Part shown: piece after piece, positions 25,549-40,270 of the stretch
Layout: each line of letters opens with the position of its first letter
Position numbering within the stretch: the stretch's first letter is position 1
Assembly: GCF_009497655.1 (NCBI RefSeq)
Contig: NZ_CP023317.1
Location: 3,377,501 to 3,441,500, forward strand
Origin: Priestia megaterium
GTDB lineage: Bacteria; Bacillota; Bacilli; Bacillales; Bacillaceae_H
Length of the DNA: 64,000 nt
Reading direction: 5' to 3'
The notes under the pieces: generated by a model
Seen by the model: the letters and a program-made list of their open reading frames with translations, nothing else
What the model was told of the DNA's origin: nothing
Database searches by the model: none
Made by a program: the position numbers and the translations under genes

Positions 25549-25584
25549 AAAAAGCACTCACTTGTGGTGAGTGCTTTTTTAGCT
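25549..25584. terminator. nupC terminator
   Basis: The stem AAAAAGCACTCAC / GTGAGTGCTTTTTT lies directly after the nupC stop. Confidence 0.92.
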
Positions 25585-25597
25585 TTTCTATCTGTTT

Positions 25598-25918
25598 TTA
25601 ATTCATATCAACAATAGAAGTAACGCGGTAGTTATCATTATAGCTGACGTTTACTACGTATTGCTTCGATTCGCCTTCTTTCACCTTTCCCGTTACCTCT
25701 ATATACTCAAAACCACGGTCCGCAAAATCTGCTTTTTCCACCACTAAGTCTTTATGTCTTTTTTCTTTAAAGTATGTAATGGCTGCCTGCTCTGCCTTAT
25801 GGAACATTTGATCATTTTGTTTTTGCTCCATTTGTTTTTCTCTAGAATGATCTATGTAAATCCCTCCTCCTAAGAGTAGGAGTATAAGAACTGAACAAAA
25901 AATGAGAGCTTTTTTCAT
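25598..25918 (-). CDS. small membrane-anchored extracytoplasmic protein
   Basis: This 106-residue protein has an N-terminal hydrophobic anchor (residues 4-24, MKKALIFCSVLILLLLGGGI) and a small soluble domain ending in YVVNVSYNDNYRVTSIVDMN. The layout resembles small Bacillus exported proteins of unknown role. GAAGGAGAAAAAT precedes ATG 25918. Family not assigned. Confidence 0.6.
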   Translation of the reverse strand: MKKALIFCSVLILLLLGGGIYIDHSREKQMEQKQNDQMFHKAEQAAITYFKEKRHKDLVVEKADFADRGFEYIEVTGKVKEGESKQYVVNVSYNDNYRVTSIVDMN

Positions 25919-26462
25919 TATTTTTCTCCTTCTTTATATGGTTACAGACTGCATTCTCAATATCCATATAAGAGATTTTCACCTTTTACGGAGATTTTGA
26001 AGTAAGCTGAATTGCGATTGGGGCATTTCCTACTTCCCTTATCTAGACATTCATTGGATTAATACACTTTATCAAGATTTATCTCTTCCAAGCTAATCAC
26101 TCTTTTCTAATTGCCTATTATTAAATTATCACACATAAGAGTAAATAAAGGTTAGAATTTAATTATCCTATTTATCATTTTGCAAACCTTATCATACATC
26201 ATAATTTTAAAAACTGAAATAGCTAATAATGTGATTTTTCGGTGAGTTTTGTTTCTATTTTTTATGAATCACCCTGTTTTTTTCTAAAGGTCACTGTAGA
26301 CACTGGTAGTCTACGTATCGTTTAAACCTTAATGAATACGGTCTTTGGGATTTAAAAATAAAGACTAGTATTAGCTGGGGCACTATTTCGTTGGTAATAG
26401 TTTGCATAGAGGGTTTTAAAAAAAGATAATTATGTTTGAGGGGGAACTGATGAATAAATTAC

Positions 26463-26591
26463 ATGGTAAATTATACAGTAAGTAATGATACGAAAAGAAA
26501 AATTGAAAAAGTTAAGTATTATGGACTCAGATATATTTCGAGTGCAAATGATCGTACAAGGAATGTAATTCAAATTGTTCAATTTCACTAA
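26463..26591 (+). CDS. possible 42-residue peptide gene
   Basis: ATG 26463 opens MVNYTVSNDTKRKIEKVKYY and continues, 42 codons in all, to a TAA at 26591. A hairpin AACAAGGCA / TGCCTTGTT (26590-26622) follows. The good ribosome site GAGGGGGAACTG instead serves an out-of-phase ATG at 26450 (MNKLHGKLYSK, 11 codons), so the gene may be frameshifted or translationally coupled. The bases from 25919 to 26450 hold no other feature that I can support. Confidence 0.35.
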   Translation: MVNYTVSNDTKRKIEKVKYYGLRYISSANDRTRNVIQIVQFH

Positions 26592-26680
26592 CAAGGCAAC
26601 CAAATATATAGCTGCCTTGTTTAACTCCATATCTTCAAAAATATAAAATCACTATTTGTCTTTTAAAAAGCTTTACACCT

Positions 26681-28135
26681 TTATACGTCTAAAACGTCGT
26701 TTTTATCCTTAGGTTGCTTGAAAGGTTTGTTAAATATACTGAGATACATTGCTACTGTGCTAATGGAAATTATTAATATTATTGAGATAATTACAGATGT
26801 ATCTAATAATAAAATAAACCCTAATCCTGCTATGGAAGTAATAGTTGAAAGTATTGTCCATGTTGAAAATGTTTCTTTCATACTTAACCCGAAATATTCT
26901 TTAATCATCCAAAATCCTGCATCATTAACATGTGAGCATATTGAGCTTCCCGCTCCAGTTGCAAGAGTTACTAAGGCTAAATTAGCATCGTATTGAGACA
27001 GCATTGGAATAACTAATCCTGCAGTGGATATAGCGGCAACTGTGGCTGATCCTAAAGAGATACGTAATAATGCAGCAACTACCCAAGCAAGTATGATAGG
27101 TGACATTGAAGTTCCTTTAAACAATTCTGCTACATAATCTCCTACACCACCATCAATTAGTACTTGCTTGAAGGCACCCCCGCCTCCAATAATTAATAGC
27201 ATCATACCAATTGCAGCAATTGATGATGCACAGGAGTTCATAACTTCTTTTATAGGAGTATTTCTTGCTATTCCCATTGTATAAAATGCAAGAATTAAAG
27301 ATATCAACATTGCAGATGAAGGGTTTCCTATAAGACGAATTATTTCAATCGTTGTATCATCTTCAAATCCTACTGATTTTTGAATCATATCAAGAATTGT
27401 AGATATAGACATTAATAAAACAGGAAACATTGCAGTTAATACGCTTATGCCGAAACCTGGTGTTTCGTTAAGTTTGAACGTTTTTTGTTCACCTAAAGAA
27501 GCTATATTACCCGTCTTCTTGAATGCATCAGGTACGATTTTTTTAGCCATCTTAGTATATAGAGGACCTGCTATAATGACGGTTGGTATTGCAACAATAA
27601 TACCGTAGAGTAAAACTAATCCAATGTCAGCACCATACTCACCAGCTATGACTGTTGGTCCTGGGTGTGGGGGAAGGAAACTATGAGTTGCTAATAAAGC
27701 TGCAGCCATAGGAATACCTAAGTGCAAGATAGAGGCTCTTAATTCTTTCGCAATCGAAAATACAATTGGGATTAATAAAACTAATCCTACTTCAAAAAAT
27801 AAAGCTATACCTACAATAAACGAAGCAACTACAACAGCCCACTGAATTCTTTTTTCTCCAAATTTGTTAATTAGAGTCATGGCGATACGCTGAGCTCCCC
27901 CTGCGTCAGCAATTAATCTACCAAGCATTGCACCAAGTCCAAATATTAAAGCTATATGACCAAGTGTACCTCCTAATCCAGCTTCAATGGATGTGACAAC
28001 CTTTTCCATAGGCATTCCAAGTGCTAAAGATACAACAAAAGATACAATTATCAATGAAACAAATGTATTTAATTTAAATCCAGTAATCAAAATTAGCAAC
28101 AGAATAATCCCAATCGCTACTATAAACAATGGCAT
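26681..28135 (-). CDS. GntP-family sugar-acid permease
   Basis: This 484-residue protein has about 12-14 membrane segments and GntP family blocks: [33 protein letters not shown] near residue 53, [21 protein letters not shown] near 149 and [26 protein letters not shown] near 415. GntP proteins import gluconate and related sugar acids with protons. GGAGGTATATC precedes ATG 28135. It is the last gene of the pentonate cluster, like yjhF beside yjhG-yjhH in E. coli, so xylonate or arabinonate is the likely substrate. Confidence 0.88.
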
Positions 28136-28285
28136 GATATACCTCCAAAAAATAATTAAAATATTTTTACTTGCTCCACTTATTGAAACACTAATTTTAT
28201 ATTTTAATTAGTAAGTAACTCTAGGACGCTTATGCTATTTTGTTTACTAGTCATAAAGTACAACTATTTGAAAAAACGCCCTTTA

Positions 28286-28298
28286 GTAAACGCTTTCA
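28286..28298. promoter_or_regulatory. cre box upstream of the GntP permease gene
   Basis: GTAAACGCTTTCA (reverse TGAAAGCGTTTAC) matches the CcpA cre consensus closely. It lies in the 201-bp gap between the dehydratase and permease genes, so it may repress the permease promoter when preferred sugars are present. Confidence 0.7.
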
Positions 28299-28336
28299 AT
28301 TAAAGTCATAAATATTTTAAAATTAATATTAATAGG

Positions 28337-30325
28337 TTAATTCTGTACTAATGTTTTTTCTTTGTCTAATGCTTCTACGCCTGCTTTTAGAACCTCAATA
28401 ATTCGATCTGTGTCATAGATATTTCCACGCCATGTTCCTCCACTGACTGATTGAAGCGCAGCCCACAAACGAGTATCATCTGGAAGACCCGGATCCGGTT
28501 TTAGCTCTGGATGAAGGTCACGTTCTTGCAAGACTTTAGTTGCTTTTTCTAAAGAAAGTCTTGTATTCTCAGTTCCAACAAAATTAACTGAACCCACTAA
28601 TTGATTACGGTCAATAATGATTTCAATTATGTCTCCATCACGTAATCTTCCAATTGGTCCCCCAGCTAATGCCTCAGGTCCAATATGTCCGATACAGGCA
28701 CCAGTAGAAACACCAGAGAAACGCGCGTCTGTAATTAAGGAAACATGTTTTCCAAAAGACAAATGTTTTAAGGCCGATGTTAATTGATATGTTTCCTCCA
28801 TTCCGGTTCCTGAAGGACCACCGCCCATAACTACCATTATATCTCCTGCTTCTATGCCTCCTGTTTTAATCGATTTTATGGCTGCTTTTTCTGAAGTAAA
28901 GACCTTTGCTTTTCCTCTATGTCGATATACCCCGTCTTCTCCTACCACAGATGGATCAATAGAAGTTGATTTAATTACTGATCCTTCAGGGGCGATATTT
29001 CCTTTCGGGAATGTAACTGTGGAAGTTAGACCTTTTTCTTTTGCTTTGGCTGGATCCATAATAATATCATCAGGATTGATTCCATCAGCCTCTAACGATT
29101 GTTTTTTCATCATTGCACGTCTTTCTGATTTTTCCCACCAATCTAGGTTTGAACCAAGAGTTTCTCCAGTAACTGTTAGCACATCTTCATGCAAGACACC
29201 TAATTTTCTCAAATGAAGCATTACCTCCGGTACTCCACCTGCTAAGAATACCTTAACAGTTGTATGACCTACAGGACCATTTGGTAGTACATCGACTAAA
29301 CGAGGAACTTTTTTATTGATTCTAGTCCAATCTTCAACGCTAGGTATCTTACAATTAGCTGCATGAGCAATTGCTGGAATATGAAGTAATAAATTTGTTG
29401 AACCCCCGAAAGCTGCATGAATTACCATAGCATTCTCTATAGCTTTATCTGTAATTATATCTTTGGTGGAAATCTTTTTCTTCTCCATTTCTAAAGCCGC
29501 ACGTGCTGATTGCTTAGCCATCTCCATCCATACTGACTGGCCTGAAGGTGCTAGTGCCGAGTGGGGTAAAGCCATTCCAATTGCTTCTGCAACAACTTGA
29601 GAGGTACCAGCTGTCCCAAGAAATTGACATCCTCCTCCCGGTGTAGCACAAGCACGACATCCGAGATCAGCAGCTTCTTGCAAAGTAATTTCGTTATTTG
29701 CGTATCTTGCCCCAATTGTTTGAATCTTGCCTGCATCTTCTCCATTTGTAGGTGGAAGAGTAACACCTCCAGGAACAATGATAGTTGGCAAGTCATGCAT
29801 TGATGCCAGAGCTACCATCATTGCTGGAAGACCTTTATCACATGTAGCTACTCCGATAATTGCTCTGCGAGTAGGCAATGAACGAATTAATCTTCGATAA
29901 ACTATAGCCGCATCATTTCGAAAAGGCAGTGAGTCAAACATACCAGTAGTTCCTTGGGAGCGACCATCACATGGATCACTTACGAAACCTGCAAAGGGCA
30001 CGCCACCTTGTCTACTAATCTCTTGGGCTGATGCCTTCATTAATAAACCTATTTCCCAGTGCCCAGTATGATAGCCTAATGCAATTGGAGTACCATCATG
30101 ATTCCTGATTCCACCTTGAGTACCGAGAATTAGAACTTGTTTTCCCAGTAGATTTGAAGGTGCCCAGCCCATACCAACATTTTGGGATAATCCAAAAAGG
30201 TCACCACTTGGTGAGTCTAACAACATTTCGGGTGTAAGTGGGAGTGAACCATCTGCTCCCTTCGAATGAGTTTGAATTTTATAAAGAGATACATCCTCTT
30301 CGCCAAATATGGATTGCAATGACAT
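28337..30325 (-). CDS. D-xylonate-type dehydratase (YjhG/YagF, IlvD/Edd family)
   Basis: The 662-residue protein starts at ATG 30325 ([20 protein letters not shown]) behind GGAGG. It matches the YjhG/YagF branch of the IlvD/Edd family in length and sequence: [20 protein letters not shown] near 108 and [16 protein letters not shown] near 165 with iron-sulphur cysteines, [19 protein letters not shown] near 243, and [18 protein letters not shown] near 575. It should convert a pentonate (D-xylonate, perhaps also arabinonate) to 2-keto-3-deoxypentonate. It heads the central pair with the aldolase gene. Confidence 0.9.
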
Positions 30326-30436
30326 ATGTATTCCTCCGTTAATAAGATTTTTTATAAAAAAAGACATATTTTTATGTTGCTCATACTATTTTCTATTAAT
30401 TGGAGAATATAGGTTCCTCGAAAACAACATCTTTCA

Positions 30437-31366
30437 TTAATAATTTATGAAATTTTTTTCTGTCCCTAGTGCCTGGCCTAGTATTTGTTCTACTTGTTCC
30501 TTCTTTCTTTCACTAAGTTCACGAGCTGGAGCTATCATGTTTGTAGAAACTTTTATCCCTCTTAAGGAAAGAGCTTCTTTAATCACACTTACAAAAGGCT
30601 TATCTATTTGATATAAGGATAATAAACTTGATAACAGACGATGAGCTTCAATTGCGCGGGCATAGTCTTTTTCCATAAAAGATTGATAAATATTTATGGA
30701 AATCTCTGGTGCAAAATTAGCAGTACCAGGAATGGAGCCATCTCCGCCAAGAGATAACGTATTTAAAAAGTGATCATCGTATCCTGAGAAAACAGCGAAA
30801 TCAGGATAGGTAGCCTTTACAGTCAAGATCATTTCCCTTGTATGAGCAACTGAATCAACAGTTTCTTTAATACCTACAATGTTGGGATAAGATTCGACTA
30901 ACTTAAGAACAAGTTCCGGAGATAAATCTTGGCCTGTTAATGCTGGAAAATTATATAAAAGGGTGGGCATATTTACTTTTTCAGCAATTTGGGCAAAATG
31001 CTGAAAAAGATTATCCTCGGATAAAGGCCAATAATATGGGTTAATGACTACGATTCCATCCGCCCCTATTTCTTTGGCATGCATACTTAGTGAGATAGTC
31101 TCTTTTGTACTTGGAGTACCAGTGCCAATTAGAACTGGCAGACGTCCATTTACATATTCCACTGCAAATTCCGCTACTTTTTTCCTTAAAGAAACTGACA
31201 TTTGACTGAATTCTCCACCTGATCCTAAAAAAAACAGCCCATTCACTTTAGAATCAATTAGAAAATCAATTAAATTTTTCATTCCTTTTTCATCTGAACA
31301 TTCATTTTGATCTACTATTGTAGAGACAGGCGGAATTACCCCATGAAACCTTGTTATTTTTCTCAT
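30437..31366 (-). CDS. 2-keto-3-deoxypentonate/gluconate aldolase (YagE/YjhH, DHDPS family)
   Basis: This 309-residue (beta/alpha)8 class I lyase is very close to E. coli YagE/YjhH. GVIPPVSTIVDQNE comes at the start, FFLGSGGEFSQMS near 45 carries the family GxxGE signature, YYWPLSEDNLFQHFAQIAE is near 112, NFPALTGQDLSPELV near 139, and the Schiff-base lysine is in NIVGIKETVDSVAH near 166. Such enzymes split 2-keto-3-deoxypentonate into pyruvate and glycolaldehyde (Dahms route). ATG 31366 has AAAGGATGG upstream. Confidence 0.88.
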   Translation of the reverse strand: MRKITRFHGVIPPVSTIVDQNECSDEKGMKNLIDFLIDSKVNGLFFLGSGGEFSQMSVSLRKKVAEFAVEYVNGRLPVLIGTGTPSTKETISLSMHAKEIGADGIVVINPYYWPLSEDNLFQHFAQIAEKVNMPTLLYNFPALTGQDLSPELVLKLVESYPNIVGIKETVDSVAHTREMILTVKATYPDFAVFSGYDDHFLNTLSLGGDGSIPGTANFAPEISINIYQSFMEKDYARAIEAHRLLSSLLSLYQIDKPFVSVIKEALSLRGIKVSTNMIAPARELSERKKEQVEQILGQALGTEKNFINY

Positions 31367-31464
31367 TATATTTCCATCCTTTTAAAATTTAATAAAAACA
31401 AATTTTTTAAGCTCATATAAAAACTCAACTTAATTATTTAAATATAATTTTGTTGTATTTTGGC

Positions 31465-31493
31465 AAAAAGATATAGGAGATTGCTATATCTTC
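31465..31493 (-). terminator. possible terminator upstream of the aldolase gene
   Basis: On the minus strand AGATATAG / CTATATCT is followed by T5. It lies between the MFS gene and the aldolase gene, suggesting that the cluster is not one simple transcript. Confidence 0.55.
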
Positions 31494-31608
31494 TATTTGT
31501 TAAGAGATAACTTTCTTCTAGTAAAGGATCTCTTTAGATACGTGTAGTAGCTAGAATTGTTTCTTTTTAAATGCTTTAATTAACCTAATAAAAATTTAGT
31601 TATTATTG

Positions 31609-31643
31609 GCTAAGCAATATTATTATAAATCTTTGCTTAGCCT
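31609..31643. terminator. hairpin after the MFS gene
   Basis: The perfect 10-bp stem GGCTAAGCAA / TTGCTTAGCC lies 32 bp after the MFS stop. Its T tract is weak, so partial termination is possible. The rest of the 308-bp gap (31367-31674) holds no gene. Confidence 0.55.
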
Positions 31644-31674
31644 TCTTAATATCACATCGTTTATAATCATTTTA

Positions 31675-32979
31675 TTATTCTACTCTCTCTTGAATAGGGT
31701 TTTTCACTAAAAACCAATAACAAAATGCTGCACATCCTGCAATAATACCACCGGATATGAAGGCAAGAGAGTAAGATCCAGTCTTATCTACAATTAAACC
31801 TGCTATAAAGGGTGAAAGTGCTCCTCCAAAATAACCTCCAAAGTTTTGTATAGCGCCTACAGATGCAACCATAGAAGGAGGGGCAATATCTCCGGCAAGC
31901 GCCCAAGCACTTCCTGTAATTGCGGAAATAAAACAAAGTGCCAGTGTGAATAAAGTTATTTTCATAGTAAGACTATCCACAAAAGGAACAAAAATCACCA
32001 CAATAGCAGCTAATATAGCACAGATGCTAATTAGCGCACGTTTTGCCTTAACTGGAGACGTTATACCCTTATCTACTAGCTTTTTTGTAAGATACCCTCC
32101 AAAAATAGCACCAAATATTCCACCCACCCACGGGATACTTGCATAAATGCCTAGCTCTTGAAGGCTAACTCCATGCACTTCAACGAGATACAGAGGAAGA
32201 AAGACTAAGAAGATATTCCAAATCCAAATGGTACAGAAGAATCCTAAAATCATTCCCCAAACAGTTTTGTATTTAAATAACGATCTCCATTTAATCTTTG
32301 AATTTACTAGGTTTTCCTCAAAGCCAGCACCCTCTGATTGAATATATTCAAATTCTTCTTTAGAAAGTTTTCTGCTATGTTCAGGGTTTTTATAAAAAAT
32401 CCAAAAAGCAATACTAAATAACACTCCTGCAATACCGGTAATATAAAATAATGACCTCCATCCAAAAGCCAACATGATTGCGACTAAAAGAGGAGGAGCA
32501 ATAGCCGGACCCCATTTCGATGACGAATCCCAGAGGCCTGTTGCAAATCCTCTTTCTTTTTTTGGAAACCAGTAAGATGTTATTTTTGCACCTGTTGGCC
32601 AGCAAGGGGCTTCACCAGCCCCTAGAAGTAACCTTACAATAATAAATGAAGGTAGCTTACTGAAGAGCCCCATCATAAATGTAGCTCCACTCCACCACAA
32701 GACTGCAATTGAATATATCTTTTTTGTACCAAAACGATCAATTAGCCAACCAGCAGGAAGCTGCATTAAAGCATAAGACCATGAAAAAACTGTACCTAAA
32801 AGTCCTATATCTGTTTTTGTTAAATTTAACTCTTTCATCATTTGCGGAGCAGCAATAGATAGATTTGCCCTATCTAGGTAGTTGATAAACCCACCTATGA
32901 TTAACCAGATTACAACCGTCCATCTCCAATTTTTTTTGGGTGCAGCAGAAAGCACGGGCTCTTTAGTTTCAATTTGCAT
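31675..32979 (-). CDS. MFS sugar-acid transporter (anion:cation symporter type)
   Basis: This 434-residue protein with 12 membrane segments has the ACS-family signature block: INYLDRANLSIAAPQMMKEL near residue 33, GWLIDRFGTKKIYSIAVLWW near 77 and GAGEAPCWPTGAKITSYWFPKKERGFA near 119. Relatives import hexuronates, galactonate and other sugar acids. GGAGATAAACAA precedes ATG 32979. Inside this cluster it is a second uptake system beside the GntP permease. Confidence 0.87.
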   Translation of the reverse strand: MQIETKEPVLSAAPKKNWRWTVVIWLIIGGFINYLDRANLSIAAPQMMKELNLTKTDIGLLGTVFSWSYALMQLPAGWLIDRFGTKKIYSIAVLWWSGATFMMGLFSKLPSFIIVRLLLGAGEAPCWPTGAKITSYWFPKKERGFATGLWDSSSKWGPAIAPPLLVAIMLAFGWRSLFYITGIAGVLFSIAFWIFYKNPEHSRKLSKEEFEYIQSEGAGFEENLVNSKIKWRSLFKYKTVWGMILGFFCTIWIWNIFLVFLPLYLVEVHGVSLQELGIYASIPWVGGIFGAIFGGYLTKKLVDKGITSPVKAKRALISICAILAAIVVIFVPFVDSLTMKITLFTLALCFISAITGSAWALAGDIAPPSMVASVGAIQNFGGYFGGALSPFIAGLIVDKTGSYSLAFISGGIIAGCAAFCYWFLVKNPIQERVE

Positions 32980-33080
32980 TTGTTTATCTCCTAATCAATT
33001 AAAATAGATGAAAATAAAGGAAGTGATAGTTATGCACCTCCTTATCATTATTTGATTTCATACATTGATTAAAAATGGAA

Positions 33081-34547
33081 TTACGGTTTTACAAATACGG
33101 TTTTAATAGAAGTAAAAAATTCAATTGCAGCTTGCCCTTGCTCACGAGAATGAGAGCTAGATTGTTTCATTCCTCCGAATGGTGCTTGCAATTCTACTCC
33201 AGCAGATTCCGCATTGATACGCACAAGGCCAGCATCCATCTCACTTACGAATGAAAGCATACGCCCAATTGATTTCGTAAAAATGGAAGCACTCAGTCCA
33301 AACTTTACATCATTTGCAACATCCAGTGCTTCTTCTAACGTTTCAACCTTCATAAGTGCAAGTACTGGACCGAAAATTTCCTCTTGAGCAATAGTCATTC
33401 CACTAGTCACATTTTCAAATATAGTAGGCTCCACATAAAAACCATCAGCCAGCTCTCCTTCATCTAGACGCTTACCACCATAAGCTAACGAAGCCCCTTC
33501 TTCAACACCTTTTTCTACGTAGGCGAGTACTGTGTTAAGCTGGTCTTCACTTGCACAAGGTCCCATCCAAACATCTTTTTCGAGGCCGTTCCCAACTTTT
33601 ATTTCTTTCACTTTATCAATCAGCTTTTCTTTAAACTCTTCATAAATTTTACTTTGTATAATTACCCGACTCGTAGCTGTACATTTTTGGCCAGTGGAAC
33701 GCAAACCTCCACTAATAGTTGCCTCTACTGCTTGTTCAATATCAGCATCGTTAGCAACGATAACTGGATTTTTCCCTCCCATCTCTAATTGATATTTTGC
33801 ACCACGTTTTAGTGCACCCAAACCAACTTGTTTACCAACTGCATCGGATCCTGTAAATGTAATTCCTTTAATATCTGGATGATCAATAATGCCTTGTCCA
33901 ATAACAGAACCAGAACCCGTTACCATATTAACCACACCACTTGGCAAACCTGCCTCTGCAAAACATTCCATAACTTTTGCAGCAGTAACTGCTGCTTCTC
34001 GAGCTGGCTTCAATATGATAGCGTTTCCATATATAAGCGCGGGAGCAATCTTCCAAATAGGAATAGCTACTGGAAAGTTCCAAGGTGTAATAACACCCAC
34101 TACCCCAAGGGGAGCTCGAGTCGTGTACATAAATGCTTCAGAGTCTGTTGAAGGTAAAACATCTCCTATCTTTCTTAGACCCTCTCCTGCATAATAGCGT
34201 AGAATTGCAACGCCTCTTGCAGTTTCACCTTTTGCTTCTGAGAATGTTTTTCCCATCTCGCAGGTCATTGTCTTTGCTATTTCATCTAAGCGCTGCTCAA
34301 GCATATTCGCTACTTTATATAAATACTGACCACGATCGGCCCCCGATAGTTTGCTCCAAGCAATTTGAGCTTTTTTAGCAGAATTGACAGCCCTATCTAA
34401 ATCTTCTTTTCCAGAGTGCTGTACATACCCCACTACTTCATGCCGGTTGGCTGGATTAATGCTGCTATCAACTCTCTTAACAGAACCAGGTACCCACTCG
34501 CCAGCAACATAATTTAAATACATTTTTTCTTCCGTTTTTATACTCAT
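33081..34547 (-). CDS. alpha-ketoglutaric semialdehyde-type aldehyde dehydrogenase
   Basis: This 488-residue aldehyde dehydrogenase has [20 protein letters not shown] near residue 150, [12 protein letters not shown] near 232, the general base in [11 protein letters not shown] near 256 and the nucleophile in [12 protein letters not shown] near 289, then [11 protein letters not shown] near 387. It resembles GucD/YcbD-type enzymes that oxidise 2-oxoglutarate semialdehyde. ATG 34547 (MSIKTEEK) follows GGAGGAAAATACG and is preferred over the earlier frame start. Together with the downstream-pathway dehydratase it completes the Weimberg route to 2-oxoglutarate. Confidence 0.85.
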
Positions 34548-34650
34548 CGTATTTTCCTCCATATATCTAAATTAAAAGTTATTTAATTCTTAAATTTCTG
34601 ATATTTCAAAATAGAAAAGTAGTTTAATAATTAAGTTTGAATTTATTTAA

Positions 34651-35544
34651 TTAGACCGAAATTTTATTTGGTAACGTTACACTATTTTTTAATATACCAA
34701 TACTGGGAATTTCAATTTCAATCTGATCACCCTCTAATAATGTAAAGTCATTTGGTGGTACAATACATGTGCCCGTTAATAGTACGGTCCCATCAAAAAT
34801 TTCATTATCACGAGCTAAGAAGGAAACCAATTCTTCAAATTTTCTTTTTAATTGACGCGTACTAGCTGTTCCTTCTACTACAAGGTTTTCATGGCGATAA
34901 ATACGACATGTAATATCAAAGTTATATGGATCTTTTACGGATTCCGCGAGAAGAATAGCTGGTCCAATAGAACAAGAGTGCTTCCACATTTTTGCCTGTG
35001 GAAGATAAAGCGGATTTTCTCCCTCAATATCACGGCAGCTCATGTCGTTTCCAATTGTATAACCAAGGATTTCGCCTTCCTGACTAATAATCAAACCGAG
35101 TTCTGGTTCAGGAATTTGCCATTTAGAGTCACTACGAATATAGACTTCCTGATTAGGTCCAACTGTGCGAGCAGCTGTAGATTTAAAGAAAATTTCTGGA
35201 CGTTCTGCGTCATATACTTTGTCGTAAAATGTGGTAGCGTCTAAATTTCCATCTGTAGCTTCATAGTTTCTGGCATCTCGGCTCCGTTCGTAAGTAACTC
35301 CCGAAGCCCATACTTCTTGGGCAATAATAGGTACAAGTAGTGAAAGCTCTTCAATAGATTGTGGGATAGGCTTTGACTCAGAAATCATATTTTGAACAAA
35401 AGAAAGGGGAGAAATGTTTTGTGCGTGCGCTTGGTGGATTAGTTGCATAAACCCTTCCTGCTCGAGGGGGTAAACTATTCCCTCTGATGTAAGGGCTGCC
35501 AAAATGGGTTTTAAATCTTCACTCAAATATCGAATAATACGCAT
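34651..35544 (-). CDS. 2-keto-3-deoxypentonate dehydratase (FAH family, KdaD/XylX type)
   Basis: The 297-residue protein belongs to the fumarylacetoacetate hydrolase fold. WASGVTYERSRDARNYEAT near residue 78, YDKVYDAERPEIFFKSTAAR near 107, PEPELGLIIS near 144 with metal-binding glutamates, and NDMSCRDIEGENPLYLPQAK near 166 match the archaeal 2-keto-3-deoxy-D-arabinonate dehydratase pattern. It would form 2-oxoglutarate semialdehyde. ATG 35544 has GGAGG upstream. A 17-bp palindrome lies 17 bases before the start. Confidence 0.85.
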   Translation of the reverse strand: MRIIRYLSEDLKPILAALTSEGIVYPLEQEGFMQLIHQAHAQNISPLSFVQNMISESKPIPQSIEELSLLVPIIAQEVWASGVTYERSRDARNYEATDGNLDATTFYDKVYDAERPEIFFKSTAARTVGPNQEVYIRSDSKWQIPEPELGLIISQEGEILGYTIGNDMSCRDIEGENPLYLPQAKMWKHSCSIGPAILLAESVKDPYNFDITCRIYRHENLVVEGTASTRQLKRKFEELVSFLARDNEIFDGTVLLTGTCIVPPNDFTLLEGDQIEIEIPSIGILKNSVTLPNKISV

Positions 35545-35560
35545 AGAAAAACCTCCATTT

Positions 35561-35577
35561 GTTTTATAATATAAAAC
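35561..35577. promoter_or_regulatory. probable IclR operator at the dehydratase gene
   Basis: GTTTTATAATATAAAAC is a perfect 17-bp palindrome at the start of the cluster's structural genes. The same palindrome, with A/T exchanged at the centre, overlaps the promoter of the adjacent iclR-type gene. Confidence 0.7.
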
Positions 35578-35618
35578 CTAGTTTTTTAATATAGACAAAA
35601 GAGAAGGGACCCTCTTTA

Positions 35619-36383
35619 TTAAATCGGTATCCCATGTCCCATCTGCTCGGATAATTCGGAAGCTGCTTGTTTCAGTTGTTGAACGAAAATACCTAACTGG
35701 ATGTCATCTACTCCTGCTATAAGTGTAGAAAGGCTTATAGCAGCTATAACTTGATTGTCGTGGTTTCGAATAGGTGCTGCAATACAACGAACACCAGGTT
35801 CATTTTCCTGATTATCAACTGCATAGCCCTGACTTTGAACTTTTTTAAGTTCCTGCAAAAATTCAAATTCGTTTGTAATAGTGAATTCAGTTTGCTTAGT
35901 GTACTCATATCCAGCTAAAATTTTTTCTATTTCATCTCTTTCTTTAAAAGCTATTAGAGCTTTTCCTACTGCAGAACAGTGAAGTGGAATTCTTTTTCCT
36001 ATTCGGGAATAAAGAATAACCGCCAACGGACCTTCTACTTTATCAATATATGTTCCTGCTTTACCATCTAAGATGACTAAATGTGTAGTTTGTCCTGTTT
36101 TTGTTGATAAGTCTATCAGATATTTTTTAGCTAATTGTCTAATATCTAAAGACTGAATAACATAGTTTCCTCTTTCGAAAAGTTTCATCCCTAGCCCATA
36201 CTTTCCATTCTCGAGGTTTTGACTAATATAGCCACGTTGTTGAAGTGTTTTCAATAATGAATGAACAGTACTTTTATGAAGACCCATCTGATCACTTATA
36301 TCTGTTATCTTTAATTCTGTTGTATGTTCATCAAAGAGGTCCAGAATACGAAGGGCGCGATCTACTGATTGAATAATAGGCAT
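35619..36383 (-). CDS. IclR-family transcriptional regulator of the pentonate cluster
   Basis: The 254-residue protein has the N-terminal winged helix (ALRILDLFDEHTTELKITDISDQMGLHKSTVHSLLKTLQQRGYI, about residues 9-55). The C-terminal ligand domain contains VEGPLAVILYSRIGKRIPLHCSAVGKALIAF near 115 and ENEPGVRCIAAPI near 190. IclR proteins sense sugar acids and aromatic acids. GGGTGGA precedes ATG 36383. It is the first gene of the minus-strand cluster, equivalent to yjhI beside E. coli yjhG/yjhH. Confidence 0.9.
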   Translation of the reverse strand: MPIIQSVDRALRILDLFDEHTTELKITDISDQMGLHKSTVHSLLKTLQQRGYISQNLENGKYGLGMKLFERGNYVIQSLDIRQLAKKYLIDLSTKTGQTTHLVILDGKAGTYIDKVEGPLAVILYSRIGKRIPLHCSAVGKALIAFKERDEIEKILAGYEYTKQTEFTITNEFEFLQELKKVQSQGYAVDNQENEPGVRCIAAPIRNHDNQVIAAISLSTLIAGVDDIQLGIFVQQLKQAASELSEQMGHGIPI

Positions 36384-36399
36384 GGAGTTCCACCCTTTT

Positions 36400-36416
36400 G
36401 TTTTATATTATAAAAC
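36400..36416 (-). promoter_or_regulatory. probable IclR operator over its own promoter
   Basis: GTTTTATATTATAAAAC is a perfect palindrome. On the minus strand it includes a TATAAT -10 (36407-36412) with TTTGTA 17 bases upstream. A partial copy, ATTTTATAATATAAC, lies at 36438-36452. Autoregulation is inferred. Confidence 0.7.
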
Positions 36417-36452
36417 TTGTTTTTATTATTACAAACAATTTTATAATATAAC

Positions 36453-36738
36453 TATAATGCCTATTATTCAGAAAAGTCAAATGCTTTTTTTAACTTAATC
36501 AAAATATAAAAGTCTATACCTCAAACTGAAATTAAGAGTTAGCATTTCATGAACACCTTTTAACAAAATTCTCATAGTAATTCTTAAAAGAATGTGTACA
36601 AAATAGAACAGGAACATTTAAACAAAACCTAGCATATTTCATTTCATAGAAGAATAACAGAACTCATTACTGGAATAAAACGATTGAAGCATTAATTGTA
36701 ACAAAATAAAAAAGTGTAACTGACCATAGCCAATCTTT
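36453..36738. other. AT-rich spacer between cluster and nuclease gene
   Basis: No coding region, clear terminator or repeat was seen here. Confidence 0.45.
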
Positions 36739-37743
36739 TTATGAATACGATATTACCTTATATCTCTCTTTATATTTGTCCTCAAATTTCCTAACCTGAT
36801 TTTCTGTATAAAAATGTGCTACTTTATATTCCTCATTATTATAGGCTTCTGCAATTCTAAGAGGTTGTTTAACATCTTTTGGATAGTAAGTTGGCATTAT
36901 TGTAGATATACGATTATAAGTCAGAATGCCTGTCTCTTTGCTTTTTTCACGATTTAATACATAAAGCCCTTTAAATATCGCTTCAAAGCGTCCAGAAGAA
37001 GTTTTAGCATATGCAAATAGTGCAATCTTCTGATTCAGCTGATACATTCTTTTCTGAAAGTAGGCTTCGTTCTCTTCTGGAATTGTATTATATTCAATAA
37101 ACAGTTCTTCATTTTCAAGAAGTTGATTGTTCCACGTTTCATTAGGGAAAAATTTTAACCTTTTAATATCTGTATCTTCTTCAAACTTGTGTGGTGCTCC
37201 GCTTTTTTGAATTCCGTGAGCATAGCCAGCTCCAAACACATTGCAACAGTCTGCGACTAATCTTAAAGAAATATTATCGTCGGCATCTATATATCCTTGT
37301 TCAATATACGTATTTGGATCGTATTCCTTCTCCACATCCCATGGAATAAACCCTTTCTCCTTTGTTAGTAAATTAATTTTTTCTACTATCTGGTCAATCT
37401 TTTCGTGAATCTTTTCAAGAGATTCAGTAGCATCTATTCTGATAAATTCACAATCTAAGGCATTTACAATATCGTTTTTTCTAATTTCGTCTAATGTTTG
37501 ATTTATATTATTCTTATGATGGGCTTCATCAATTTCAATGGCCAAATTAAACTGTGGAAAATACAAATCAATTAATCCGTATTCAACCTTTTGGTGTTTA
37601 TTTGATCGTACTACATACTGTTGAGTATTTATTTTTATATCGTAATTATCAAGCAAATGCCAGATCCTTGTAATGATATAGTTTTCATCGTTTTTTTTAT
37701 TCGTTTTCGCTAATTGTCTTTTAATATAGTCATACTTGTTCAT
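36739..37743 (-). CDS. AbaSI-like modification-dependent restriction endonuclease
   Basis: This 334-residue protein begins MNKYDYIKRQLAKTNKKNDE and resembles AbaSI-family enzymes, which cut DNA containing hydroxymethylated or glucosylated cytosine. The N-terminal half is a Vsr-like PD-(D/E)XK nuclease: LIDLYFPQFNLAIEIDEAHH gives D59, E70, D72 and H75/H76, followed by EIRKNDIVNALDCEFIRID. The C-terminal half (about 150-334) should be the SRA-like base-recognition domain. It stands alone, as type IV enzymes do. Assignment is from remembered sequence pattern. Confidence 0.7.
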   Translation of the reverse strand: MNKYDYIKRQLAKTNKKNDENYIITRIWHLLDNYDIKINTQQYVVRSNKHQKVEYGLIDLYFPQFNLAIEIDEAHHKNNINQTLDEIRKNDIVNALDCEFIRIDATESLEKIHEKIDQIVEKINLLTKEKGFIPWDVEKEYDPNTYIEQGYIDADDNISLRLVADCCNVFGAGYAHGIQKSGAPHKFEEDTDIKRLKFFPNETWNNQLLENEELFIEYNTIPEENEAYFQKRMYQLNQKIALFAYAKTSSGRFEAIFKGLYVLNREKSKETGILTYNRISTIMPTYYPKDVKQPLRIAEAYNNEEYKVAHFYTENQVRKFEDKYKERYKVISYS

Positions 37744-39330: not shown

Positions 39331-40179
39331 TTACTTACTTTCATTAATAATAGAGATATTAAGAGAAAACTCCTCAAAACTTACTTGTCCCAAGGCAAGC
39401 TTCATACTTTCAACAAATATACGTTCATTTTTAGTTAGTTCACGCTTTGCTTCCTTTTCAATCCATTCATGCTCAACGTCTAAAACATCTAACACATGCT
39501 TTTGTTTTGAAAAAGCCTCATAGTATCTTAATCCAAACTTTCTTTGGGAAACGGCATCAATATGAATGCCATCTGGATTTGCTGTTAAGCCTTTTGATGT
39601 TACAAAATAACAATTTTTTTCAGTATGGGCAACTTTAGATAATATCTGGTTTATTTGTTTATATTCTACGGCGCTTTTTCCAAATCCGACGTCTCCAAGG
39701 TAATGCCCCAACTCACCGATAATAATGGGGATATCTGGTGCATTCAATTCTTCTCTCAAATATTTAAACAATGAAAGCAGTTTATCTTCATACGTCTTAT
39801 AACGTTCTCTGTAACTGTCGCTTTCTCCTTGATGCCATAGAATTCCCACTAACTCACTTGTTTCCATTGCGAATTTTGCTTCAGAAATCGCGTGTCTTGT
39901 TAATAGTCCTTCAATTGTCCACTCATCAATTGAGCTTCCTCCTTCGGCACATGGTATTACCCCAATGGACTCGCCCGGATGATCCTCTGTCCAAGCTTGG
40001 GCAAAAGAGGCTGCTGGCCCGACGCCAGATATGTGACGATCAAAATTAAGTGGTTCTGCCATTGTTTGCCATCTACCGTTTCTCAACATATGTATATGCT
40101 CATTATAAATCGGCGGTACATCCTCAATAAATCCTCTGCCTGCCATATTTGATTGTCCAATTAATAATATAGATTTCAT
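39331..40179 (-). CDS. SGNH-fold carbohydrate acetylesterase (sialate O-acetylesterase-like)
   Basis: The protein has 282 residues from ATG 40179 (MKSILLIGQSNMAGRG), which follows GAAGGTATTTCT. Block I GQSNMAGRG carries the catalytic serine, PCAEGGSSIDEW near 80 and GILWHQGESDSY near 110 are the SASA/CE6 blocks, and the catalytic Asp-His pair is in NPDGIHIDA near 207. It should remove acetyl groups from sugars. No signal peptide is seen, so it acts in the cytoplasm. Confidence 0.85.
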   Translation of the reverse strand: MKSILLIGQSNMAGRGFIEDVPPIYNEHIHMLRNGRWQTMAEPLNFDRHISGVGPAASFAQAWTEDHPGESIGVIPCAEGGSSIDEWTIEGLLTRHAISEAKFAMETSELVGILWHQGESDSYRERYKTYEDKLLSLFKYLREELNAPDIPIIIGELGHYLGDVGFGKSAVEYKQINQILSKVAHTEKNCYFVTSKGLTANPDGIHIDAVSQRKFGLRYYEAFSKQKHVLDVLDVEHEWIEKEAKRELTKNERIFVESMKLALGQVSFEEFSLNISIINESK

Positions 40180-40270
40180 AGAAATACCTTCTTTCTCTTC
40201 CATGTTGATCACTTTTTTCTAATTTGCTCGTGCTTATACTTATAGAATTAGTTACACTCTCATATATAGC

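Follow-up and report, generated by a model that had tools for sequence, protein, structure and literature searches.

A probable pentonate gene cluster of Priestia megaterium with putative Weimberg and Dahms exits from one intermediate

The stretch of Priestia megaterium DNA analysed here (RefSeq assembly GCF_009497655.1, contig NZ_CP023317.1, positions 3,377,501 to 3,441,500; 64,000 nucleotides, hereafter the window, whose numbering we use) contains a gene cluster that looks equipped to convert a pentonate to 2-keto-3-deoxypentonate (KDP) and to process this intermediate in two ways. Positions 26681-36383 are filled by seven intact minus-strand open reading frames (ORFs), which encode, in order of transcription, an IclR-family regulator, a FAH-fold dehydratase, an aldehyde dehydrogenase, an MFS transporter, a YagE-type aldolase, the dehydratase YjhG and the permease GntP (Table 1). 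The initial annotation had named all seven in this way, and both their intact frames and their scores against curated models agree with it. The oxidative routes of pentose metabolism have been studied most in Proteobacteria and archaea.

The permease scores 643 bits against TIGR00791 (cut-off 293). The dehydratase reaches 1211 bits against the YjhG/YagF model TIGR03432 (cut-off 808), and its cysteines C133, C176 and C247 sit in motifs shared with E. coli YjhG. With 892 bits, the aldehyde dehydrogenase exceeds the cut-off of NF042993 (770), as no other of the genome's 21 matches does; since it matches many solved aldehyde dehydrogenases about equally, its designation as alpha-ketoglutaric semialdehyde dehydrogenase (KGSADH) rests on this NCBIfam model. 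The MFS protein is nearest to the D-galactonate transporter subfamily (295 bits, under the cut-off of 395), and the IclR protein stays below every curated NCBIfam cut-off, with KdgR as its nearest match (200 versus 275 bits).

The aldolase belongs to the DHDPS family, with E. coli YagE as its best solved relative (E 3.9e-102). It matches seven NCBIfam families, none above cut-off, and its motifs are of the YagE/YjhH type: it keeps Lys167, which forms the Schiff base, as well as the serine and tyrosines that make up the proton relay in YagE (residue roles from PMC9795676; articles cited by PMC number are quoted from excerpts throughout). Among solved FAH proteins, an archaeal one is by far the nearest to the fah product. 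The active site of the Sulfolobus enzyme comprises Glu143, Glu145, residue 164, Glu114 and Lys182 (PMC9795676, where residue 164 is printed as Glu; the aligned chain has Asp). Comparing its Mg2+ ligands and Glu/Lys dyad, we found the equivalents Glu146, Glu148, Asp167, Glu117 and Lys185 in the window's protein, all five unchanged across the 106 aligned rows. A structure predicted for this protein from the single sequence was of too low quality for use (mean pLDDT 35). Because the catalytic residues of the FAH protein and the aldolase are conserved, both chemical exits from KDP appear to be encoded by functional genes. At the gene level this bears out the earlier proposal of a Dahms exit, through the YagE-type aldolase, beside a Weimberg exit, through the FAH dehydratase and a KGSADH that likewise has its catalytic residues. 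The D-KDP dehydratases studied in PMC7374468 are FAH-family proteins and the L-KDP dehydratases DHDPS-family proteins, a split with which D-KDP as the FAH substrate would fit. Elsewhere in the genome, a glycolate oxidase above the GlcD cut-off is a possible downstream sink for Dahms products.

Table 1. Features of the pentonate cluster and its flanking sites (positions in the window).
Feature	Position	Strand	Remarks
gntP, GntP-family sugar-acid:H+ symporter, likely importer	26681..28135	-	63% identity to E. coli YjhF
cre-like sequence TGAAAGCGTTTACT in the yjhG-gntP gap	28285..28298	-	one mismatch to consensus
yjhG, IlvD/EDD-family pentonate dehydratase	28337..30367	-	66% identity to E. coli YjhG; expected product KDP
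yagE/yjhH-type class I aldolase, putative Dahms exit	30437..31366	-	Schiff-base Lys167, Tyr138, Ser49, Tyr112
308-bp gap upstream of yagE	31367..31674	-	10-bp stem (31642-31633 / 31617-31608), no T run, no operator
MFS transporter, anion:cation symporter type	31675..32979	-	profile match
KGSADH, last step of the putative Weimberg exit	33081..34562	-	Cys294, Glu260
fah, KdaD-type FAH-fold KDP dehydratase, putative Weimberg exit	34651..35544	-	Sulfolobus active-site residues matched
operator-like palindrome GTTTTATAATATAAAAC	35561..35577	.	16 bp upstream of fah start codon
iclR, IclR-family regulator of the IclR-FAH-dehydrogenase core	35619..36383	-	
operator-like palindrome GTTTTATATTATAAAAC	36400..36416	.	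16 bp upstream of iclR start codon; promoter-like sequence 36480-36451 lies upstream

Neither a sugar dehydrogenase nor a lactonase is found among the seven cluster genes, as previously stated, and the complete sugar-to-acid set of a Weimberg or Dahms pathway is not present in the cluster. Since the cluster has neither enzyme, an external sugar acid would be the simplest input, which was also the earlier view. One SMP-30-type lactonase match lies about 1 Mb from the cluster; reading the ORFs of at least 150 residues in the 12 kb around it, the only part of the genome searched in this way, we recognised no sugar dehydrogenase. In nine loci from Paenibacillus and other genera (L113, L115, L117, L118, L123, L129, L146, L147 and L149; L and G numbers denote loci and genomes of our samples), a GH43 xylosidase-family gene lies beside or near yjhG, mostly together with Weimberg genes. 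These neighbours suggest a link between xylan breakdown and xylonate use, and because of them D-xylonate is favoured as the substrate of this YjhG lineage. D-Arabinonate should yield the same D-KDP. Going by reports on relatives of YjhG and KdaD, the substrate is most likely D-xylonate or D-arabinonate.

To see how common the two exits are, we collected YjhG orthologues, which occur in 36 of 397 genomes of the order, and inspected the flanks of all 36 as far as about 9 kb in either direction, some regions ending at contig ends. Both exits are present at two of these loci, the window and one of the same genus (L031). FAH and/or the dehydrogenase alone accompany yjhG at 20 loci, a YagE-type aldolase (at least 53% identity) alone adjoins it at six, and six have neither exit; the remaining two are ambiguous, with a 36% identical DHDPS protein (L128) or a 54% identical aldolase several genes off (L132). 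Counted over whole genomes, FAH occurs in 27 of the 36 and the aldolase (at least 54% identity) in 13: seven genomes have both, 20 FAH without aldolase, six aldolase without FAH, and three neither. In one of the seven (G056), FAH and YjhG are kept and the aldolase match (G056:C55:75765-76670) has two internal stops, so that its second exit is possibly decaying.

The FAH side was sampled separately. Orthologues at E <=1e-100 were found in 12 of 61 genomes searched and in 2 of 10 genomes of the window's own genus, and some FAH-fold match, mostly weak, in 57 of the 61. The best 80 of 259 confirmed relatives and 11 further regions gave 91 loci, all picked for FAH, or 88 distinct ones after removal of three duplicates. 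By ORF clustering, these 88 contain the dehydrogenase in 73 cases, IclR in 63, YjhG in 32 and a 734-residue IlvD/EDD protein in 27 (FAH itself was counted in 86, the overlap filter having removed it from two). The trio of IclR, FAH and dehydrogenase is complete in 54 of the 88, and IclR proteins of at least 50% identity in 66 Bacillales FAH loci. These counts show that an IclR-FAH-dehydrogenase Weimberg core is widespread in Bacillales and that its entry enzyme varies. The Weimberg branch that the initial annotation had described as an extra is thus present in the cluster, but the half to which it belongs is itself common in the order.

YagE-type aldolases of at least 50% identity occur in five of the 91 FAH loci. 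Besides L031, these are L119 of Lysinibacillus fusiformis S4, outside the YjhG sample, which has FAH, dehydrogenase, YjhG, GntP and aldolase at one locus, and L093, L103 and L104, in which FAH, dehydrogenase and an aldolase of 52-58% identity stand with other dehydratases. As dual loci exist outside the YjhG sample, the combination of two exits in one cluster, rightly called unusual before, is not unique. Further candidates (L033, L040 = L097, L071, L109, L110 and L114) were not counted: their DHDPS proteins, 38-44% identical to the window's aldolase, differ in motifs (SSGEF/STGEF, YNIP, FDE/FDD) and form a separate clade (6 rows, 100/98). Of six DHDPS/YagE-type proteins tested against NCBIfam cut-offs, only that of L119 passes one, DapA by 5 bits, which we take as a family-level match. 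One of the uncounted loci, L109, comes from a record titled Pseudomonas sp. ISL-84; its genes are arranged as in Cytobacillus oceanisediminis (L110, L114), with which it also clusters in the tree of FAH proteins, and the assembly is probably mislabelled or contaminated.

A palindrome, GTTYTATANTATARAAC, recurs upstream of iclR in relatives. With a weight matrix built from 26 sites, the window, sister and duplicate loci being excluded from training, both copies in the cluster (Table 1) score 25.5 bits; the next best position of the window reaches 11.4 bits, and ten block shuffles of the window gave no site of at least 14 bits. The 5.24-Mb genome has two exact copies, both within the cluster, and one more with a mismatch, and a reversed control pattern also matches once, which places the third copy at chance level. 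The weight of the operator evidence is in the two exact copies and their positions. Because the palindrome precedes iclR, we take IclR to be its binder and the palindrome to be a putative IclR operator.

We then scored a site as near a start when at least 14 bits were reached within -250 to +90, leaving out four duplicate loci and starts too near an end. Such sites were found at 53 of 100 fah starts, 18 of 61 yjhG starts, 3 of 12 yagE starts and 31 of 73 iclR starts (partly training data); the corresponding numbers are 2 of 87 for the dehydrogenase, 0 of 11 for gntP, 0 of 3 for the MFS gene and 28 of 1324 for other ORFs. Among aldolase-only loci, the site lies 41 bp upstream of yagE in L140 and L144 and at or shortly before the yjhG start in L145, L150 and L151; L152 has no site. 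Unlinked copies also occur in three genomes (G304, G343 and G362), each ahead of an orthologue (76-77% identity) of the MFS gene from the window. The palindrome-preceded set of these genomes also holds a TRAP-transporter cluster and a 2-hydroxyacid-dehydrogenase gene, whose product in G304 is nearest the glyoxylate/hydroxypyruvate reductase GhrB, under its cut-off. As a candidate operator, the palindrome links both exits and the MFS transporter across Bacillales, and it joins scattered sugar-acid genes of this order into one testable regulon.

Several loci (L093, L069, L045 and L110, also L173, L175 and L177) contain a larger cluster that shares the palindrome and often the FAH-dehydrogenase core. 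Its members, not all of them present at each locus, include a TRAP transporter, a 2-hydroxyacid dehydrogenase and a nickel-pincer isomerase (LarA-like, group 22), as well as the 734-residue IlvD/EDD protein, which scores far below curated cut-offs, a 316-residue protein with a weak U32 match and a galactarate/altronate-dehydratase-type protein. The larger cluster looks like an uncharacterised sugar-acid route, which may begin with an epimerase. We found no mention of a substrate of LarA group 22 in PMC11770544.

The window's cluster itself looks like a mosaic of two pathway halves. In the YjhG tree, the window's clade and Lysinibacillus L119 are sisters (9 rows, 100/99). In the FAH tree L119 groups with rows from Lysinibacillus, Sporosarcina and Cytobacillus (12 rows, 96/97), and the window's FAH protein belongs with that of L031 and five from other genera (7 rows, 98/87). 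The aldolases of the window, L031, L119, L140 and L144 come together with moderate support only (89/89). Because the YjhG of L119 is of the window's lineage and its FAH protein is not, the trees suggest at least two assemblies of the dual set. Third-position identity to the congener is 0.79-0.84 for IclR, FAH, KGSADH and YagE and 0.92-0.94 for MFS, YjhG and GntP, a contrast that would fit piecewise exchange and to which codon constraint could contribute.

Chance assembly of the seven genes is argued against by the congener's cluster, which is 94.2% identical to block 26677-36490 over 9826 bp and is sited elsewhere in that chromosome. That the cluster passed recently from one congener to the other is unsupported, since this identity resembles that of backbone pieces (93-96%). 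We also dropped the idea of a special conservation of the 308-bp gap: its identity to the congener (0.945) is like that of the adjoining MFS gene (0.971 overall, 0.929 at third positions).

Among known systems, the closest in gene order is the E. coli Dahms-type D-xylonate operon yjhI-yjhH-yjhG-yjhF (also yagEFG/XynR), whose arrangement is kept as iclR...yagE-yjhG-gntP; the aldolase is 51% identical to its E. coli counterpart, and the values for dehydratase and permease are listed in Table 1. The initial claim that four genes mirror this operon therefore holds where gene order is concerned and fails for the regulator: the window's IclR is 34% identical to YjhI over 215 residues, does not count as its orthologue, and belongs to the Bacillales core. 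The yjh locus itself has no FAH dehydratase, KGSADH or MFS gene. Given this low identity and the association of IclR with the Bacillales FAH-dehydrogenase core, a yjhHGF-like half joined to a Weimberg half would be at least as fair a description. The palindrome is a Bacillales finding; E. coli was not scanned for it.

The Weimberg (Route II) clusters of Caulobacter, Pseudomonas and Sulfolobus have the FAH-fold KDP dehydratase and KGSADH in common with the window, which differs from them in lacking sugar dehydrogenase and lactonase, in its added aldolase and in its entry dehydratase, YjhG, a position held in those clusters by XylD or the archaeal enolase-type enzyme (PMC10107873, PMC9795676). 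The IclR-FAH-dehydrogenase clusters of Paenibacillus, Neobacillus, Aneurinibacillus and other Bacillales share the same core, with the palindrome in about half of them and with entry by YjhG or other dehydratases. Two exits from KDP also exist in Sulfolobus solfataricus, where the aldolase is encoded elsewhere. Herbaspirillum huttiense has two as well, Route II and Route III (PMC6336799), and Pseudomonas putida BP8 combines the Weimberg pathway with a third route from KDP (PMC10107873); according to these excerpts, both pair dehydration with a dehydrogenase/hydrolase route, whereas the window pairs it with an aldolase. Among the literature matches listed, none reports, by title and abstract opening, a Weimberg pathway from Bacillales or any native cluster that joins Weimberg and Dahms genes, and the excerpts of PMC5507952 and PMC11998424 contain no Weimberg/Dahms pair. 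The YjhG, YagE, KdaD and KGSADH families, both pathways and two-exit KDP metabolism elsewhere are known, and the palindrome as a candidate marker of a KDP regulon in Bacillales is new.

With moderate confidence, we favour a reading that joins pentonate import, the YjhG step, two exits from KDP and control by IclR. An extracellular pentonate would be imported by GntP and/or the MFS carrier and dehydrated by YjhG to 2-keto-3-deoxy-D-pentonate. The FAH protein would convert this intermediate to alpha-ketoglutaric semialdehyde and the dehydrogenase would carry it on to 2-oxoglutarate, while the YagE-type aldolase would yield pyruvate and glycolaldehyde. IclR would bind the palindromes upstream of iclR and fah and repress both genes until an intermediate, probably KDP, builds up. 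A second transcription unit possibly begins in the gap between the MFS gene and yagE. Substrate and stereochemistry, the palindrome as IclR operator, the effector, repression, the transcription units and a flux through both exits are the parts of this scheme that we infer.

Published work offers analogies for several of these steps. Because the E. coli IclR-family proteins XynR and YjhI respond to 2-keto-3-deoxy-D-xylonate (PMC13279387), the window's IclR probably senses KDP. In Salmonella, a YjhI-related IclR controls a xylonate operon, and the growth cost of uncontrolled expression likely comes, in the authors' view, from toxic intermediates (PMC12445098); a second exit could relieve the build-up of such an intermediate. 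Engineered P. putida appeared to run Weimberg and Dahms routes at once (PMC6978631). In the window, the dual cluster would provide a natural setting in which to study how one intermediate is partitioned between 2-oxoglutarate, reached without loss of carbon, and the pair of pyruvate and glycolaldehyde; metabolic engineers otherwise make this choice by hand.

A number of results weigh against this reading. No palindrome lies upstream of the window's own yagE, yjhG or gntP, and common control of the two halves is thus unsupported. At the threshold of 14 bits, no site was scored at 47 of the 100 starts of fah and at nine of the 12 of yagE, and the dual locus of Lysinibacillus (L119) has neither the site nor an orthologue of the window's IclR. 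A plain count of the pattern with three mismatches found four copies in the window, which is non-significant, as 11 of 100 shuffles reach four. In the promoter scan, the cluster gave 35 matches where 37.3 are expected from shuffling, and within the 308-bp gap, whose stem is not followed by a T run, no terminator prediction was obtained. Finally, KDG-type aldolases are reported to accept both C4 epimers and C5 as well as C6 substrates (PMC9795676), so that the aldolase may serve another acid.

This last point leads to the alternative that survives best, although we regard it as unlikely: the exits would serve different substrates, the FAH protein taking D-KDP made by YjhG and a promiscuous aldolase taking L-KDP or 2-keto-3-deoxyhexonates that enter through the second transporter. 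The range reported for such aldolases (acids of C5 and C6, either C4 epimer; PMC9795676) speaks for it, the cluster does have two transporters from different families, and GntP proteins are best known for hexonates. However, the cluster contains only one dehydratase that could feed the aldolase, and in six of the 36 YjhG loci a YagE-type gene adjoins yjhG with no FAH genes nearby, which ties the aldolase to the YjhG product.

Slightly less probable still is a passive mosaic without division of labour, in which flux runs almost wholly through one exit and the other is heading for loss. The near-exclusive distribution of the exits by genome would agree with it (20 of 36 with FAH only, six with the YagE type only, three with neither, seven with both), as would the two stops in the YagE-type match of one of the seven and the gene-to-gene differences in third-position identity, which are such as piecewise exchange would give. 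Yet in neither congener is any of the seven ORFs interrupted, sequence conservation between the two is higher at codon positions 1 and 2 than at position 3, and the pairing recurs, Lysinibacillus joining the same YjhG-GntP lineage to the YagE type and to FAH of another lineage. The weakest alternative, which the initial annotation had set against pentonates and which we consider very improbable, assigns the dehydrogenase and FAH protein to glucarate/galactarate breakdown, modelled on the B. subtilis glucarate genes and in keeping with the glucarate/galactarate name of NF042993, and YjhG and YagE to an unrelated pathway; it is weakened by the lack of any KdgD above cut-off in the genome (none of four matches, best 140 versus 374 bits), by the cluster dehydrogenase being the genome's sole NF042993 match above cut-off, by the KDP-dehydratase active site kept in the FAH protein, and by FAH and/or the dehydrogenase lying near YjhG in 22 of 36 loci.

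Returning to two exits under IclR control, we can sketch, as a speculative and rather doubtful extension, a two-stage switch. The palindrome-free yagE-yjhG-gntP genes would be independent of IclR and maintain a constant low-level Dahms flow, with KDP formed throughout. Once the pentonate supply outruns the aldolase, excess KDP would release IclR from both palindromes and open the carbon-conserving Weimberg exit. Selection would have favoured this combination repeatedly in Bacillales. If true, the cluster would route one intermediate by its own concentration.

The surroundings of the cluster were also inspected. No repeat marking both cluster ends was found, and none of the 19 scanned window ORFs outside the cluster matched a transposase family, insertion elements as such not being searched for. 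The window contains eight matches to what we take to be the cre consensus, including the one in the yjhG-gntP gap, a weak signal (5.6 expected; 27 of 100 shuffles reach eight). The interval 25580-36704, from a nucleoside transporter to a nuclease, is variable within the genus: in the congener G001 the same flanking genes enclose about 5 kb of other DNA, and its own pentonate cluster is about 3.5 Mb away. The nuclease that adjoins the cluster (36739-37743) is a PvuRts1I-like restriction endonuclease with an SRA domain, with copies of 95% identity in G001 and 49% in G008 and none in seven other congeners searched. Also near the cluster, at 39331-40212, lies a SASA-type carbohydrate esterase (PF03629).

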